This document shows, one piece after another, positions 2,596 through 42,326 of a stretch of 64,000 nt of DNA. The notes under the pieces are model-generated. The model saw nothing but the letters and a program-made list of their open reading frames with translations, was not told the DNA's origin and did not search any database. This DNA comes from Bacillota bacterium (GTDB lineage: Bacteria; Bacillota; Bacilli; Paenibacillales; NBRC-103111). The translations under genes were made by a program, and so were the position numbers. How positions within the stretch are numbered: position 1 is the first letter of the stretch; each line of letters starts with the position of its first letter. Location of the stretch: contig JAEWIS010000031.1 in the NCBI GenBank assembly GCA_023386955.1, positions 124,001 through 188,000 of the forward strand. The letters are read 5' to 3'.

Positions 2596-2778
2596 TAACG
2601 GAACTCAGCGACTCTTACAGGCAAAAATTGATGTTTTGCCAGGGCTAACGGAACTCAGACGCTCTTAGCCAGCTATAAAGCACCCAACACACAACAAATC
2701 CATCGCTAACGGTTGCTGAGTTCCGTTAAACTTTGGAAACACGCAAAATTATCTTCTAAGCGTCCGATAGTTCCGTTA
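2596..2778. repeat. Four-unit repeat cassette, TAACGG type (copy 1)
   Basis: Two direct units beginning TAACGGAACTCAG start at 2596 and 2646 (50 nt apart). Two inverted units end at 2728 and 2778 (again 50 nt apart). Total span is 183 nt. Each unit is about 23 nt and ends in a CTCTTAG/CGCTTAG-like tail. The spacer between units 1 and 2 holds its own hairpin (GGCAAAA/TTTTGCC). It lies in the gap between convergent gene ends (2431 + and 3222 -). Besides this cassette, the 790-nt gap holds the G-rich repeat at 2436 and the cassette at 2931; no gene is seen. Confidence 0.9.
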
Positions 2779-2930: not shown

Positions 2931-3105
2931 GGACTCAGGAGCCGTTATTTGCACAAAATAGGCACCTTTGCCGATTTCGCGGACACACGGTACGTTAATG
3001 CCTCTGCAAACTAACCAAAACGGTTGTTTTCGGACATTTAACGGATCGTGTGTCCGTTCAAATTGAAAAACACCAATTTTGTCCTAAATAGCGCCTCCTG
3101 AGTCC
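2931..3105. repeat. Four-unit repeat cassette, GGAC type (copy 1)
   Basis: Direct units start at 2931 (GGACTCAGGAGCCGTTATTT) and 2981 (GGACACACGGTACGTTAA). Inverted units end at 3055 and 3105. Span is 175 nt with 50-nt spacing on both sides. The outer pair is complementary over most of 20 nt and the inner pair over about 19 nt, so the whole can fold as nested stems. A small CAAAAC/GTTTTC hairpin sits near the centre. Confidence 0.9.
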
Positions 3106-4967: not shown

Positions 4968-5150
4968 TTACGGAACTCACAGACCCTTAGCGCCGAAAAA
5001 TGCACCAGTCGGAGCGGTAACGGAACTGGCAGGCCCTTAGCGCCAAAAAACCGCTGATTAGTCCACCGTTATCCCCTGTAAGAGCGCCTGAGTTCCGTTA
5101 GAGTTTAAACTAACCCGATTTTCCTCTGTAAGCGTCGCTGAGTTCCGTTA
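4968..5150. repeat. Four-unit repeat cassette, TAACGG type (copy 2)
   Basis: Direct units start at 4968 (TTACGGAACTCACAG...) and 5018 (TAACGGAACTGGCAG...). Inverted units end at 5100 and 5150 (reverse complement TAACGGAACTCAG...). Spacing is 50 nt on both sides and the span is 183 nt, identical to the copy at 2596. It lies between the lyase stop (5232, minus strand) and the binding-protein start. Confidence 0.9.
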
Positions 5151-5231: not shown

Positions 5232-7526
5232 TTAATACGGCTTGGCAACCTCCACCCGGCGGCTCACGCCTTGGTACGTAAAGTATAAGTGGACCCCATG
5301 TCCCTGGTCATCCATAAAATACGACACATAATCCTGCATCCCCGCCTTGCGCGGCGTCAGCAGGGTCACCATCCGGTGGCTGGCCGCTTCCCGGGTGGAC
5401 GCCGCCAGATGCCAGTGGGGCGGCTGCCCCTCCCACTCCGCCGGATCAACACCGGCAAACCCGCTCTCCTGGGACAGCACCAGGTCGCCGGAGGAGCTGT
5501 ACACAAAACGCCCTTCCATTTGGGCCTTGACCCCATTCACCAGGAACGTCTGCCCCTTCAGCGTCATGGGATACAGCGTATGGAACAGCCAATCCACCTG
5601 GCCCGGCTGCGCCAGATCCACCGCATCCACAATCACCACGTAGGCGCTGTCCATCAGATAATATTCCCGTGTATACCGCCGAATATAGGGTACATGCTCC
5701 CGGTAGGCTTCCGTAGCATCCATAGAGGTGAAGCTGACGCCGTCCCGGTGCCATGCCTCCAGCACTGTTCCCGTTGCGGCCATATTCTTGGTTTTGTCCG
5801 TACCCGCATACTGGCCCTGGCCATCGATAAGAATTACATTCTTGGAGCGGGTTGCCTTGCGCCATTGCATATGCATGGTGCTGTTGAACGCTACATAATA
5901 CCCGCTTTCAATCGCCAGCGGCTCCCCGTAGGCATGGAGCAGAAACGCATTCTGGTCCCCGTGGCTGTGGCTGACGGAGCCGTAGCGGCTGCTTTTGGCC
6001 AGGAGCATGATATGCTCTGTCGGATCGTCCATCCGGTGGTGCATCGCCACCCAGCCCACGTCCTGGAACCACTTCACAGGCTCCGCCGCAAGCGGCGCTA
6101 CCGCCTCCACCTGCGGGTAATCCCAGCGGTAGACCATTTCGTCGAAGCGGAAATCCCACCAGCCGTAATTGTAAAAGATCATCTGGCTGTCAGGGTTCAG
6201 CTCCCGCGTCTGCTCATAGTACCACTGGTACAGGCCATTGCCCGTCACCCCGGCGAACTGCCGGATATTGAAGCCCGTCTTCAGGTTCACCGGGTCCCCC
6301 AGGGAGGACTGGTCGCAGAAGCTGGCCCGCAGCGTGTCGGGACTGAGCGTATATAAGGGGAAATCCCCGGTTTTGCGAAAAAAAGGACGGTCATAGAAGT
6401 TGATGCCGGTGTACTTGCGGACCAGATTCAGTGCTTCGGTGACAAAGGCCATCTGAGTAGTCCAGTACATGGCCCCCTCCGCCCAGCCGCCGTCCTTGCC
6501 GCCCCAGGGGGTATACATCGCCGAAAAATATTCCAGTGCATAGTCAAGCCAATCCCGGGCTTCCTCTTCTTCACCAAGCATGGCCGTGCAGCAGGGGATC
6601 AGCACAGAGGACAAGGACCGGACCGCATGGCTGTCATAAGGCACATGGTGAATCCGCGAGCGTTCGATCACATGGAAGGCCACCTGGCGGGTGCGTTCAA
6701 GAAGCACCCGGCGTACAAACACACGCTCCTCCCCGGTCAGCTCCCCGTACAGCCAGTCATACCCCCAGGCCAAGGCCCCCGCCATACGGAACGCAGCTTC
6801 GTCATTGTAATCCCGGTGGGTTGTGCCGTCTGGATTCCATGAAGCAGCATGGAGCAGCCAGGCCTTGGCCTTCGCGATCAGCTCCGCATCCTCCAGAACC
6901 ACCCCTGCCACAGCCAGATGCCGGATGGCATAAAGCATCTCCTGGCAGTCGATGTACATCTGCCGCCACAAGGAAGCCACCCGTTTGTTGCCAGGGTAGG
7001 GCTGCGGCTCGGCAATCAGCGGCCGCTCCGCCCAAGGCACAACGGCTTCGGCCAGAAACCCGGCCCAGCCGGTGCTCTCGGGATCCCGCTTCACTGCATC
7101 GCGGAAGCGGGGCAGCTCCTCCGCCTGCAGCCACAGGCGGGGATGGGCAGCTGCGGCAGCCGTATACCGGCTGTCGCGGGTGGGCAAGGGTGTCTCCGGC
7201 ACGCCGGGAGCCACCGTGAAGGCTCTGATCTTGCTCCACTCGGAGAAGCTGCCGTCCTCGGCAACCAAGGCGTACCGCCAGTAGTAGCCGCCCGGTGCCA
7301 GAACCTCGTCCGGTGTAAACAGGTTATAAGGGATACCCGCATACTCCCGTGTGGTTTCCGGAGCAAAGCCAGGGTCCGCCGATAATTGCAGCCGGTAGGC
7401 GCCCCCCTCCAAAACCGCAGGCATCCAGGTAAAGCGGGGCGGATTTTCGGCAATTTCCGTATGCTCCTCCGGGGCGTAAGCCACATCGAGCACACCGTTA
7501 TGAGGTTGAAATAATGGTGTAGCCAT
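5232..7526 (-). CDS. Heparinase II/III-family polysaccharide lyase (DUF4962 N-terminus)
   Basis: 764 residues with no signal peptide, so probably cytoplasmic. An Ig/FnIII-like N-terminal segment (residues 25-105, 'GGYYWRYALVAEDGSFSEWS') precedes an alpha/alpha-toroid region with 'HPRLWLQAEELPRFRDAV' and 'AAFRMAGALAWGYDWLYGEL'. The C-terminal beta domain has the heparinase motif 'SVSHSHGDQNAFLLHAYGEP'. DUF4962/heparinase II-like enzymes cleave uronate-containing polysaccharides by beta-elimination (established for the fold). The substrate here is not determined and could be a glycosaminoglycan, alginate or bacterial polymer. The ATG at 7526 has GGAGG 8 nt upstream. It follows a second lyase with an 85-nt gap, probably in the same operon. 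Confidence 0.8.
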   Translation of the reverse strand: MATPLFQPHNGVLDVAYAPEEHTEIAENPPRFTWMPAVLEGGAYRLQLSADPGFAPETTREYAGIPYNLFTPDEVLAPGGYYWRYALVAEDGSFSEWSKIRAFTVAPGVPETPLPTRDSRYTAAAAAHPRLWLQAEELPRFRDAVKRDPESTGWAGFLAEAVVPWAERPLIAEPQPYPGNKRVASLWRQMYIDCQEMLYAIRHLAVAGVVLEDAELIAKAKAWLLHAASWNPDGTTHRDYNDEAAFRMAGALAWGYDWLYGELTGEERVFVRRVLLERTRQVAFHVIERSRIHHVPYDSHAVRSLSSVLIPCCTAMLGEEEEARDWLDYALEYFSAMYTPWGGKDGGWAEGAMYWTTQMAFVTEALNLVRKYTGINFYDRPFFRKTGDFPLYTLSPDTLRASFCDQSSLGDPVNLKTGFNIRQFAGVTGNGLYQWYYEQTRELNPDSQMIFYNYGWWDFRFDEMVYRWDYPQVEAVAPLAAEPVKWFQDVGWVAMHHRMDDPTEHIMLLAKSSRYGSVSHSHGDQNAFLLHAYGEPLAIESGYYVAFNSTMHMQWRKATRSKNVILIDGQGQYAGTDKTKNMAATGTVLEAWHRDGVSFTSMDATEAYREHVPYIRRYTREYYLMDSAYVVIVDAVDLAQPGQVDWLFHTLYPMTLKGQTFLVNGVKAQMEGRFVYSSSGDLVLSQESGFAGVDPAEWEGQPPHWHLAASTREAASHRMVTLLTPRKAGMQDYVSYFMDDQGHGVHLYFTYQGVSRRVEVAKPY

Positions 7527-10640: not shown

Positions 10641-10823
10641 TAACGGCGGTCACAGCCGCTATTCCCCCTCAAACGGGGGACTGCCATTTCTAACGGCGGC
10701 CAGAGACGCTATTTCCGCTGCAGGAGCTCATTTTGGAGCATATTCCGTGAAATAAGAGCGCTCACTTCCGTTACAATTTCAAAAAGCCGGTTTTGAGCCA
10801 AATAGCGGCGCTCGCTTCCGTTA
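10641..10823. repeat. Four-unit repeat cassette, TAACGG type (copy 3)
   Basis: Direct units start at 10641 and 10691 (TAACGGCGG...CGCTATT). Inverted units end at 10773 and 10823 (reverse complements TAACGGAAGTGAGCGCTCTTATTT-like). Spacing is 50/50 and the span is 183 nt. Spacers contain CCCCC/GGGGG and CAAAA/TTTTG mini-hairpins. It lies between the histidine kinase stop and the SDR start. From 10824 to 11067 I see only GC-rich non-coding sequence. Confidence 0.9.
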
Positions 10824-12912: not shown

Positions 12913-13943
12913 TATTCAATCCCCAGCTGACTGCGGTATTCTGACGGGGACAGGCCGGTATATTTCTTGAAGGTTTTGGTGAAATGGGGGTGATCCGCAT
13001 AGCCCACCTCAAAGGAAATATCCGTAATCCTGTAATGGGACTGCCCCAGCAGCTTCTTGGCCCGCTCCATCCTGCGGCTGATCCGGTAGTGGACGAAGGT
13101 TTCCCCTGTCACCTGCTTGAACAGCTGGCTGAAATATGACGGATTCAGACCCAGCAGCTCGGCAACCTCCTCCAGAGAAATTTCCCGGGCCAGATTCTCC
13201 TCCATAAACGCCTTGGCTTCCTCCACCGGGTCCTTGGCCTTGCCCTTGCGCTTCACCCGCAGCTCCTGGAGAATGTCCCGCACCGCCTGGGCGAACCTGG
13301 CGAATAATTCCGCAGGGGAAGCCGTATCCGGCAGCCCAAGCACACTTTGGGCAGGGTTGACGGAGCTGGCGAGGAGCCGCCGGATCAACAGCGTATAACC
13401 CTCCTCCAGCAGCTCTTTGTGCTGGCTGCGGCTCATTTTGCGCCGGAGCACCTCCTGCTCCCATTCCTGGAGCACCGACTGCAGCTTCTCCTGCTCCAGG
13501 TTCCACACCGCATCATGCAGCCGCTCCACCCAGCCGTCCAGCTTGGCAACGGCTACGAAGCCGGCGGGCTCATTGGCCGCCTCCTCCAGCTTGGCAATGG
13601 TTTTCTGCAGCTCCGCCCGGCCTACCGGCTTCAGGAGGTACTCCTTCACCCCATAGGAAACGCATTGGCGGGCATACTCGAAATCCCCGTAGCCGGAAAC
13701 CACAACCACCTGAGTCTCACAGTCCATGCCGGAAAGCCGCCGGCACAGCTCTAAACCGTCCATGCGGGGCATCCGGATATCGGTGAACAAATAATCGGGC
13801 TGATCCTCCATCATGAGAGCCAGCGCTTCCTCTCCGTCCGCGGCCAGGCGGATATCCGCCGTTGGCCCGATAATCTGCCGGACCATAACGGAAAGACCTT
13901 TTCGGATTACTGGCTCGTCATCCACAATGACGATTTTTCTCAT
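12912..13943 (-). CDS. AraC-type response regulator, YesN-like
   Basis: 343 residues. The start at 13943 is chosen because the receiver domain begins there (MRKIVIVDDEPVIRKGL) and AAGGGGG precedes it; a 30-residue upstream extension has no family match. The receiver (residues 1-120) has the phospho-acceptor Asp in 'LFTDIRMPRMDGL' and the conserved Lys in 'YLLKPV'. The C-terminal AraC HTH (about 245-343) includes 'LAREISLEEVAELLGLN' and 'SFEVGYADHPHFTKTFKKY'. It pairs with the downstream kinase and probably activates the transporter and lyase genes around it. Confidence 0.92.
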   Translation of the reverse strand: MRKIVIVDDEPVIRKGLSVMVRQIIGPTADIRLAADGEEALALMMEDQPDYLFTDIRMPRMDGLELCRRLSGMDCETQVVVVSGYGDFEYARQCVSYGVKEYLLKPVGRAELQKTIAKLEEAANEPAGFVAVAKLDGWVERLHDAVWNLEQEKLQSVLQEWEQEVLRRKMSRSQHKELLEEGYTLLIRRLLASSVNPAQSVLGLPDTASPAELFARFAQAVRDILQELRVKRKGKAKDPVEEAKAFMEENLAREISLEEVAELLGLNPSYFSQLFKQVTGETFVHYRISRRMERAKKLLGQSHYRITDISFEVGYADHPHFTKTFKKYTGLSPSEYRSQLGIE

Positions 13944-24847: not shown

Positions 24848-24983
24848 ATTGCAACTGCAAATATTAATGTACCATTAAGCTTGTCTTCAGGCCTCATTCA
24901 GCTTGCCCCGCCATAATAAACTCTGCGGGCGTATTCGCCGCCTGACGGCCAATTTATTTAAATAAAGAAGGGATGTTACGTAA

Positions 24984-26843: not shown

Positions 26844-27017
26844 TGCAAAAGTGCAGCTATTTTGCTGGAATTCCGCCTCCCCTTGTCCCCAAATGCAAAA
26901 GTGCAGCTATTTTCCGCCGCAAGGTACATCTTGCTCCCATCAGACGAAAATAACTGCACTTTTGCAGGATAGACCGTTAAAACCAAGGTTTGTTTACTAA
27001 ATAAATGCACTTTTGCA
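26844..27017. repeat. Four-unit repeat cassette, TGCAAAAGTGCA type (copy 1)
   Basis: Direct units start at 26844 and 26894 (TGCAAAAGTGCAGCTATTTT). Inverted units end at 26966 and 27017 (reverse complements TGCAAAAGTGCAGTTATTTT and TGCAAAAGTGCATTTATTT). Span is 174 nt with 50/51-nt spacing. It lies between convergent gene ends (26637 + and 27133 -). The rest of this 495-nt gap has no gene; small ORFs across it merely translate the repeats. Confidence 0.92.
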
Positions 27018-34579: not shown

Positions 34580-34754
34580 GGACCGTGGTTCCGTTATTTT
34601 GCCAAAAAACCCGTTTTTGGTGGTTTCGCGGACACACGGTACGTTATTTCTCTCTGCAGGCCTCCAAAACGGCTGATTCCCTGCAAATAGCGTCTCCTCA
34701 GTCCGCATAAGTGGAAAAACAACTCGTTTTCGCCAAATAGGGGCTCCTCAGTCC
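34580..34754. repeat. Four-unit repeat cassette, GGAC type (copy 2)
   Basis: Direct units start at 34580 (GGACCGTGGTTCCGTTATTT) and 34630 (GGACACACGGTACGTTATTT). Inverted units end at 34704 and 34754 (reverse complements GGACTGAGGAG...CTATTT). Spacing is 50/50 and the span is 175 nt, equal to the other GGAC copy. A CCAAAAA/TTTTTGG hairpin fills the spacer between the direct units. It lies in a 634-nt convergent gap with no gene. Confidence 0.88.
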
Positions 34755-42151: not shown

Positions 42152-42326
42152 TGCAAAAGTGCAGTTATTCTATGGACCCGCCGCTGAGATAGGGGTCCGA
42201 AATGCAAAAGTGCATCTATTTCCCGCGATTACCACCCAACTGGAGGTTTTAGCGAAAAATAGATGCACTTTTGCAGGATAACATGTACAAATGGGGATTA
42301 TAGTCAAAAATAACTGCACTTTTGCA
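42152..42326. repeat. Four-unit repeat cassette, TGCAAAAGTGCA type (copy 2)
   Basis: Direct units start at 42152 and 42203 (TGCAAAAGTGCAGTTATT, TGCAAAAGTGCATCTATTT). Inverted units end at 42275 and 42326. Spacing is 51/51 and the span is 175 nt. The rest of the gap up to 42600 shows only short degenerate GTGACGT/GCAGGAT-like repeats and no gene. Confidence 0.92.

Follow-up and report, generated by a model that had tools for sequence, protein, structure and literature searches.

Why should a short intergenic element of a Paenibacillus genome change its sequence from copy to copy and yet hold its dimensions almost to the nucleotide? The question is raised by seven cassettes in a stretch of 64,000 nucleotides (contig JAEWIS010000031.1, positions 124,001 to 188,000; hereafter the window), each of which consists of four units of about 24 nt, two of them direct and the following two inverted. 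The host was identified as a member of Paenibacillus with Paenibacillus sp. YN15 as the nearest named relative; a protein of 764 amino acids encoded at 5232-7526 (minus strand) shows in its best segments 92% identity to YN15 (locus L001) and 93% to a Paenibacillaceae MAG (locus L002). In the following, G001 denotes YN15, G002 the Paenibacillaceae MAG and G003 the source of locus L003. The cassettes of the window are:

2596..2778: cassette 1, family F1 (TAACGGAACT..CTCTTA), units at about 2596-2619, 2646-2669, 2705-2728 and 2755-2778; score 60, spacing 50/59/50
2931..3105: cassette 2, family F2 (GGA-N7-TCC and YTATTT), unit starts 2931, 2981, 3036 and 3086; score 60, spacing 50/55/50
4968..5150: cassette 3, family F1, at a locus shared with L001 and L002; score 64
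10641..10823: cassette 4, family F7 (TAACGGC-N7-GCCGCTATT); score 58
26844..27017: cassette 5, family F3 (TGCAAAAGTGCA and NNTATTT), unit starts 26844, 26894, 26947 and 26998; score 74
34580..34754: cassette 6, family F2, unit starts 34580, 34630, 34685 and 34735; score 60
42152..42326: cassette 7, family F3, unit starts 42152, 42203, 42256 and 42307; score 72

The original prediction had placed two direct and two inverted units at 2596..2778 and had named six further copies. The units were found exactly there, and a scanner which looks for four matching 20-mers, a direct pair followed by an inverted pair, at an allowed spacing of 44-61 and without any sequence input, recovered precisely the same seven cassettes with scores of 58-74, the next candidate reaching 49. 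A mirror control, inverted without being complemented, reached 55 in the window, several of its hits falling on the cassettes themselves. The predicted lengths were likewise recovered (183 nt in the three copies with TAACGG, 174-175 nt in the other four). Three unit types with a common geometry had been proposed; the common geometry stood, whereas the TAACGG copies turned out to be two families instead of one, with the head CGGAACT at 2596 and 4968 and the heads CGGCGG/CGGAAG at 10641. In our reading, the register appears to be fixed by the unit tails, YTATTT or, in one family, CTCTTA, and since about 35 nt separate the inner tails in every type, the difference in length seems to sit in the unit heads. 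Shuffles would lead one to expect 0.09 occurrences of the string TAACGGAACT; the window has 7. That all copies lie just downstream of a gene 3' end is a fair but weak description, as four of the seven stand between codirectional and three between convergent genes, at 42-499 nt from the neighbouring ORF by our simple ORF calling.

Some smaller features of the window may be recorded here. Three copies of a motif with ACCATTGG, 14 nt apart, occupy 2542-2588 directly before the first cassette, and a weak F2 match (score 12.2) is found 52 nt ahead of the first unit of cassette 6. The Rfam search of the window returned only a c-di-AMP riboswitch (RF00379; 40607-40741, minus strand; 82.6 bits), away from the cassettes.

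Beyond the window, the genus was sampled by 80 named loci round one gene, 1.75 Mb in total, in which the scan at score 56 yielded 33 hits in 21 loci against 6 control hits in 5 loci. The first spacing was 49-52 in 32 of these 33 hits; two of the 33, in L047 and L059, are tandem arrays. Five genomes were scanned with the spacing range widened to 40-65. In contig 1 of YN15 (520 kb) 28 of 44 hits lay at 50-52 (control 1 of 25), most of the remaining ones belonging to a 54-nt coding repeat; the corresponding figures were 14 of 19 at 50-51 in G040 (control 1 of 15), 7 of 7 at 51-52 in G025 (no control hits) and 4 of 7 at 51, one of them in a tandem array, in G008 (control 0 of 4), and in G007 no cassettes were found across 200 kb. 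Altogether 42 cassettes with a score of at least 54 were counted across 746 kb of YN15 (contigs 1, 22 and 12), or about one per 18 kb, which by extrapolation gives some 400 in the whole genome. A set of 102 cassettes, drawn at the same score of at least 54 and without a mirror control of its own, may include weak members that are due to chance. From this set onward spacing was limited to 49-53, by which the 54-nt-spaced repeats at 148-152 kb of YN15 contig 1, which look like repetitive coding DNA, were excluded; L001, which overlaps YN15 contig 22, was dropped from the neighbour-gene analysis and later analyses. The arrays in L047 (about 2050-2400) and L059 (about 13000-13370) have a period near 52 nt and more than four copies, and are possibly related to the cassettes, possibly not. 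An array of AAGACGGTTTTTCC-like repeats with periods of 51 and 63 nt lies at joined position 88.4-89.2 kb (approximately) of G008 (L202-L211), and in L040 (1100-1850) about 750 nt, flanks included, accommodate three successive members of the GAAACTACAG family, two complete and one partial, in the manner of a tandem duplication.

At least eight unit families were distinguished in YN15:

F1: CGGAACT..CTCTTA; YN15 and window
F2: CGGA-N7-TCCG-TTATTT; YN15 and window
F3: TGCAAAAGTGCA-NN-TATTT; YN15 and window
F4: AGCGGAA..TTTCCGCTAT; set from YN15 and window
F5: around GCATACAATGTATGCTATT; set from YN15 and window
F6: CGAATC..CGCTATT; set from YN15 and window
F7: CGGC-N7-GCCG-CTATT; YN15 and window
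Eighth type: ATATGAAATTTCATAT; set from YN15 and window

Other Paenibacillus species possess further families with 49-52 nt spacing, for example GATG-N5-CATC-GYTAAAA in G025 and CTGC-N6-GCAG-GCTTTT in G040. Exact F3 units number 77 in G001, 75 in G002 and 19 in G003 (reversed control: none), and a direct pair that matches F3 exactly was present in 7 genomes out of 104 of the bacterial family, with tails that are mostly different outside G001 and G002. To the eye the units look palindromic; when measured, palindromy exceeded that of flank DNA in F4, F5, F7 and the unassigned units (t 7.0, 3.6, 3.3 and 2.5, respectively) and was no greater than in flank DNA in F1, F2, F3 and F6; column shuffles of six unit profiles revealed no significant dyad, the best being F5, whose value was reached by 20 of 300 shuffles. 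A fifth unit, sought in 101 cassettes, stood out at no offset. Unit clusters (n=124) comprised 86 complete ++-- sets at the chosen threshold, 11 with three of four units, 19 single hits and 8 others; for want of a unit profile, F4 and the ATATGAAATTTCATAT type lie outside the unit-hit, cluster and neighbour-spacing counts. Deletion derivatives with three or two units were seen at L165:10395, L160:7244 and L170:6992.

Divergent sequence at constant spacing had been taken to suggest that the structure itself is selected, and this is strongly supported by the spacing, by the divergence of the spacers and by a rhythm in AT content. Profile hits of at least score 18, taken without use of the geometry, gave 193 same-strand neighbours, of which 185 lay at 50-52 nt: 103 at 50, 61 at 51 and 21 at 52, besides four at 53 and one each at 46, 54, 63 and 83. 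F2 neighbours stood at exactly 50 in 39 of 39 cases, and across the 1.3 Mb examined the spacing was kept. The spacers themselves diverge: comparing YN15 copies in register (unit hits of at least score 14, better of two orientations), median spacer identity was 0.37 in F1 (16 cassettes), 0.51 in F2 (17), 0.56 in F3 (31), 0.37 in F5 (8) and 0.41 in F7 (11), and the family maxima ran from 0.49 to 0.93; the corresponding medians for units were 0.71-0.80. The length of the outer spacers was nevertheless constant in 34 of 34 cases in F2, 28 of 32 in F1, 49 of 62 in F3, 12 of 16 in F5 and 19 of 22 in F7. The direct spacing of 50-52 amounts to five helical turns, and the inner unit centres, where they could be set, are 59 and 62 apart (F5 and F7), about six turns. 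The centre of F1 comes in two sizes that differ by about one helical turn, the inner anchors being separated by 87-89 nt in 12 cases, 78 in four and 81 in one (138-139 in two incomplete ones); at locus 4968, L001 has 11 nt in the centre that the window and L002 copies lack.

The rhythm in AT content runs in phase through the whole cassette, from one border to the other. When halves whose tails stand 49-53 apart are aligned by these unit tails, GC switches between high and low about every five bases through spacers and centre, and AT peaks lie at about 0, 10, 20, 31, 40, 51, 61, 71, 82 and 90 bp from the dyad, the rhythm fading at the border. The oscillation is in phase with the units, is present in the spacers as well and has its best period at 10.1-10.2 bp. 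Power at 10.2 bp was 0.584 inside 95 YN15 cassettes versus 0.015 in their flanks, and 1.075 versus 0.022 for 52 other cassettes, namely the seven of the window, which belonged to the pattern-discovery set, and 45 from 20 other genome stretches, which did not. Spacer-only AT profiles of the two sets correlated at 0.86 (flanks 0.14). L047:2101 and L059:13136, arrays of about the same period, and three array hits of G008 at 88-89 kb were dropped from these analyses. Symmetry confines the phase of a whole element to values near 0 or 180; each half was therefore tested separately: without units, 32 family-or-genome groups yielded R of 0.71 and 0.72 (Rayleigh p 1e-7 and 5e-8), and the test per cassette (147) R of 0.64 and 0.62, compared with 0.02 and 0.01 in 291 flank controls. 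In the 18 groups with at least two cassettes, 14 and 15 were within 45 degrees of zero. The sole group in antiphase in both halves was F1 of YN15 (-170 degrees as a whole, 159 and -178 in the two halves). A centre with one additional turn would produce this, and the F1 copies of the window, with their short centre, are in phase. Off-phase groups were further F5 (about 50 degrees in each half), F6 and L023 (left half) and F4 (-45 in the right half).

Some cassettes occupy orthologous loci. Four orthologous pairs (cassette 4 at 10641 of the window with YN15; L235, L237 and L242 of G002 with YN15), picked for recognisable copies and with unit windows set by geometry, contain no gap in 416 unit positions, five one-nt gaps in 313 spacer positions and 31 gaps in 584 flank positions, the last number being inflated by fixed 80-nt flank windows. 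Units showed substitution identities of 0.80-0.91, spacers of 0.57-0.87 and flanks of 0.66-0.82. At the 10641 locus the cassette is present in L001, and the L002 copy lacks the first unit. Turnover is high: among 14 cassettes of the window and G002 with an inspectable counterpart region in YN15, partly judged by alignment extents, five kept their geometry (window 10641, window 4968 with a longer centre, L235, L237, L242), three were decayed (window 2931, L241, L243), three had as counterpart a different family, whole or in part (L240:5429, L251:1272, L251:7007) and three had no cassette in YN15 (window 2596, L232, L240:8439). The decayed trace of cassette 2 (2931), as we read it, seems to be kept by YN15 at the matching place. 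At L240:5429 and L251:7007 of G002, where one species has an F3 cassette, the other species has an F5 cassette or what remains of an F2 one; such a swap of families at one intergenic region may reflect chance, site preference or functional replacement.

With genes called by our simple ORF rule, 48 of 49 cassettes (42 of YN15 and seven of the window) lie outside ORFs, 18 in convergent, 26 in codirectional and 5 in divergent context. The 220 intergenic regions of at least 120 nt, cassette-bearing ones included, comprise 41 convergent, 125 codirectional and 54 divergent ones (Fisher p 0.012 for convergent enrichment, 0.035 for divergent). A bidirectional 3'-end element, one of three alternatives offered originally, may apply; the enrichment between convergent genes is modest. 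No recurrent neighbour gene was detected among 529 proteins round 152 cassettes, the large clusters of which look, from our reading of the sequence starts, like common regulator and transporter families.

Of those three alternatives, phased protein-binding sites are the one that the spacing, spacer and rhythm data favour. On balance we lean towards the view that the cassette is a dyad-symmetric site for bent or wrapped DNA, with a predicted protein at four places, carried about in part as a passenger and maintained because its helical geometry is under selection. Each cassette would serve as docking site for a complex of protein and DNA in which about 18 helical turns (175-195 bp) are bent or wrapped, and the four units would bind four copies, perhaps dimers, of one sequence-specific protein, every unit family having its own protein or specificity. 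All four units would face the same side of the helix, about 3 and 8 turns away from the dyad in both directions, and the spacers would require only AT-rich steps each 10.1-10.2 bp and no given sequence, letting the DNA curve round the protein. Cassettes would arrive partly as passengers of MITEs, after which selection would hold the geometry. Left-handed wrapping, of which nucleosomes are an example, should bring the period below the approximately 10.5 bp that free DNA has, and E. coli gyrase wraps in the opposite sense; from the period below 10.5 we infer a left-handed sense, as we do a binding protein and the wrapping itself. The role would most likely consist in fixing or buffering supercoils or in forming a boundary downstream of genes. 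Against this reading, no binding protein was identified and no gene recurs beside the cassettes, several site families per genome are unusual for one host architectural protein, the F5, F6 and L023 groups stray from the common phase, turnover between species is high, and dimer-like, palindromic units occur in some families only. A wider formulation, which we put forward tentatively and hold to be somewhat less likely than not, would see in the cassettes a nucleosome-like type of site in Paenibacillus and relatives: dispersed, sequence-degenerate cassettes of about 18 turns, wrapped by a protein predicted to bind at four places, with a recognition sequence that repeatedly diverged under a geometry kept genus-wide.

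The main rival, unlikely in our judgement and still to be taken seriously, is a minimal non-autonomous transposon with two transposase sites five turns apart at each end. Ends 180 bp apart would meet only if the DNA is bent and phased, and so the geometry would be selected at each transposition and not in resident copies. It would account for copy families within a genome with some spacer identities of up to 0.78-0.93 (F1, F2, F3, F7), for homology between F2 copies of YN15 that stops within about 22 nt of the cassette in 14 of 16, for the prevalence of complete sets among unit clusters (86 of 124) and for an occupancy that varies between close species. It is opposed by the ends themselves: no target-site duplication was found there, the largest excess in 64 cassettes (symmetric offsets -8 to +4, k 2-10) being 4 versus 1.2 expected. 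Nor was an autonomous element with split halves present among the unit clusters of 1.34 Mb, mostly of G001; neighbouring genes have no recurrent member, and the four orthologous loci, chosen as recognisable and compared with inflated flank gaps, hold their length while flanks gain gaps. Joining of flanks across 3.99 Mb gave no clean empty site, the hits being the same locus or tandem arrays; the YN15 regions opposite two G002 cassettes have no cassette, their flanks being too diverged to show a junction. One F3 cassette searched against plasmid records and one F2 cassette against phage records had no match. Like MITEs, the cassettes are dispersed and have inverted-repeat ends; unlike them, they come without target-site duplication at the ends, with internal copies of the end repeat at fixed phase and with one architecture across sequence families. 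Neither outcome named in advance as speaking against the original prediction, a loss of the spacing or MITE remnants with target-site duplications, came about, although some copies do lie inside larger MITEs. Several F3 copies are inside a MITE with GTAACTACTCAGC-type ends, among them the one carried by a MITE of about 600 bp with such ends at L164 9700-10380 (YN15 contig 22), which is flanked by a target repeat of about 8-13 bp and of which the window near 24860 represents the empty site; more copies exist in other YN15 stretches, and two F6 copies sit between GGCTGTCCGAAAAGT ends. Hence at least some cassettes spread as passengers. RAYT/Y1 mobility was considered for the remaining spread and rejected, PF01797 (REP-associated Y1 transposase) being found in two of eight genomes (G001, G003) and missing in six. 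Cassettes are present without it in G002, with its 75 exact F3 units, G004 and G008. REP/BIME-like elements moved by a RAYT are accordingly largely refuted and hardly credible here, even though the cassettes share with them short, tailed units, often in inverted pairs, some palindromic, an intergenic place, many families and a high copy number, hundreds per genome by extrapolation. They differ in having four units at fixed helical phase, periodic AT between the units and palindromic units in some families only; the GTAG or CGTC tag by which REPs are defined (PMC3733652) is found in none of six family consensuses, whose tails are YTATT(T) or CTCTTA.

A bent and protein-bound site has also to be weighed against strong DNA gyrase sites, comparable to BIMEs or the Mu strong gyrase site, at which gyrase wraps phased DNA and cleaves at the dyad; we consider this improbable. 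The E. coli gyrase motif is described as symmetric, with a 36-bp centre and 47-bp arms with periodic GC, of period 10.75 over 130 bp (PMC6379681), and cleavage sites are reported there as enriched downstream of highly transcribed operons (PMC6379681, PMC12393610). The cassettes resemble it in their symmetry, a centre of about 36 bp (some 35 nt between inner tails), arms with phased GC and the place downstream of genes, more often between convergent genes than other intergenic regions are; they differ in a length of about 183 bp, a period of 10.1-10.2 and family-specific repeated sites, and the spacer signal at 10.75 is 0.034 and 0.013 versus peaks of 0.082 and 0.118. We know of no need of gyrase for four specific sites that differ between families. 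More improbable still is a structured RNA in which unit 1 pairs with unit 4 and unit 2 with unit 3, the resulting nested hairpin serving as a terminator in both directions or as a stabiliser of 3' ends. Single strands do fold as nested hairpins on both strands, as computed without a shuffle control, and the position outside ORFs would suit it. The suggestion of a nested hairpin found little support in the 102 cassettes, where nested partners are less alike than direct neighbours (35.8 versus 37.1 of 52, Wilcoxon p 0.015), the opposite being true of F1 (nested 36.3, direct 33.5) and F4 (38.2 and 36.8, all of 52), and both being equal in F2. RNAalifold, run on 18 F2 cassettes (14 of the 16 of YN15, two of the window, two found in G002), gave a covariation term of 0.03 kcal/mol with two-sided changes in 3 of 27 predicted pairs, and a dyad-phased AT rhythm of 10.2 bp is a feature of double-stranded DNA.

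Among other known systems, octameric Lrp-family regulators (BarR, Grp) are described with promoter operators of four to five sites, 15-bp semi-palindromes with spacers of 15-17 bp and about 31 bp apart, one DNA being wrapped round one oligomer (PMC10201364). The number of four sites is alike; spacing here is 50-52 and about 60, and the cassette is a dispersed repeat. Eukaryotic nucleosome positioning sequences likewise alternate in AT/GC content with a period of about 10.2 bp, for 150-190 bp on and around a dyad; in contrast to them, the cassettes are bacterial and have four family-specific sites; to our knowledge, no histone is known here. A description of these cassettes was sought in openly licensed full texts and not found, and the unit sequence strings, searched for in papers, gave among the matches listed only unrelated ones. 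The P. vortex genome paper mentions repeats of about 37 bp on average at most scaffold ends, the passage concerned giving no description of them. Ordinary repeat finders would split or miss families that share geometry more than sequence, which may explain the absence of a published description. The cassettes lead to the question of what protein in bacteria recognises some 180 bp by sequence and bends or wraps them symmetrically about a dyad, and to what end downstream of genes; should the rival be true, they would instead form a class of mini-transposons whose ends are helically phased and for which no enzyme is known. Either way, a spacing of about 51-61-51 combined with the 10.2-bp rhythm can serve as a rule for annotation, and by our own arithmetic (42 cassettes of 183 nt in about 89 kb) roughly 8-9% of the intergenic DNA consists of cassettes in those parts of YN15 that were covered.
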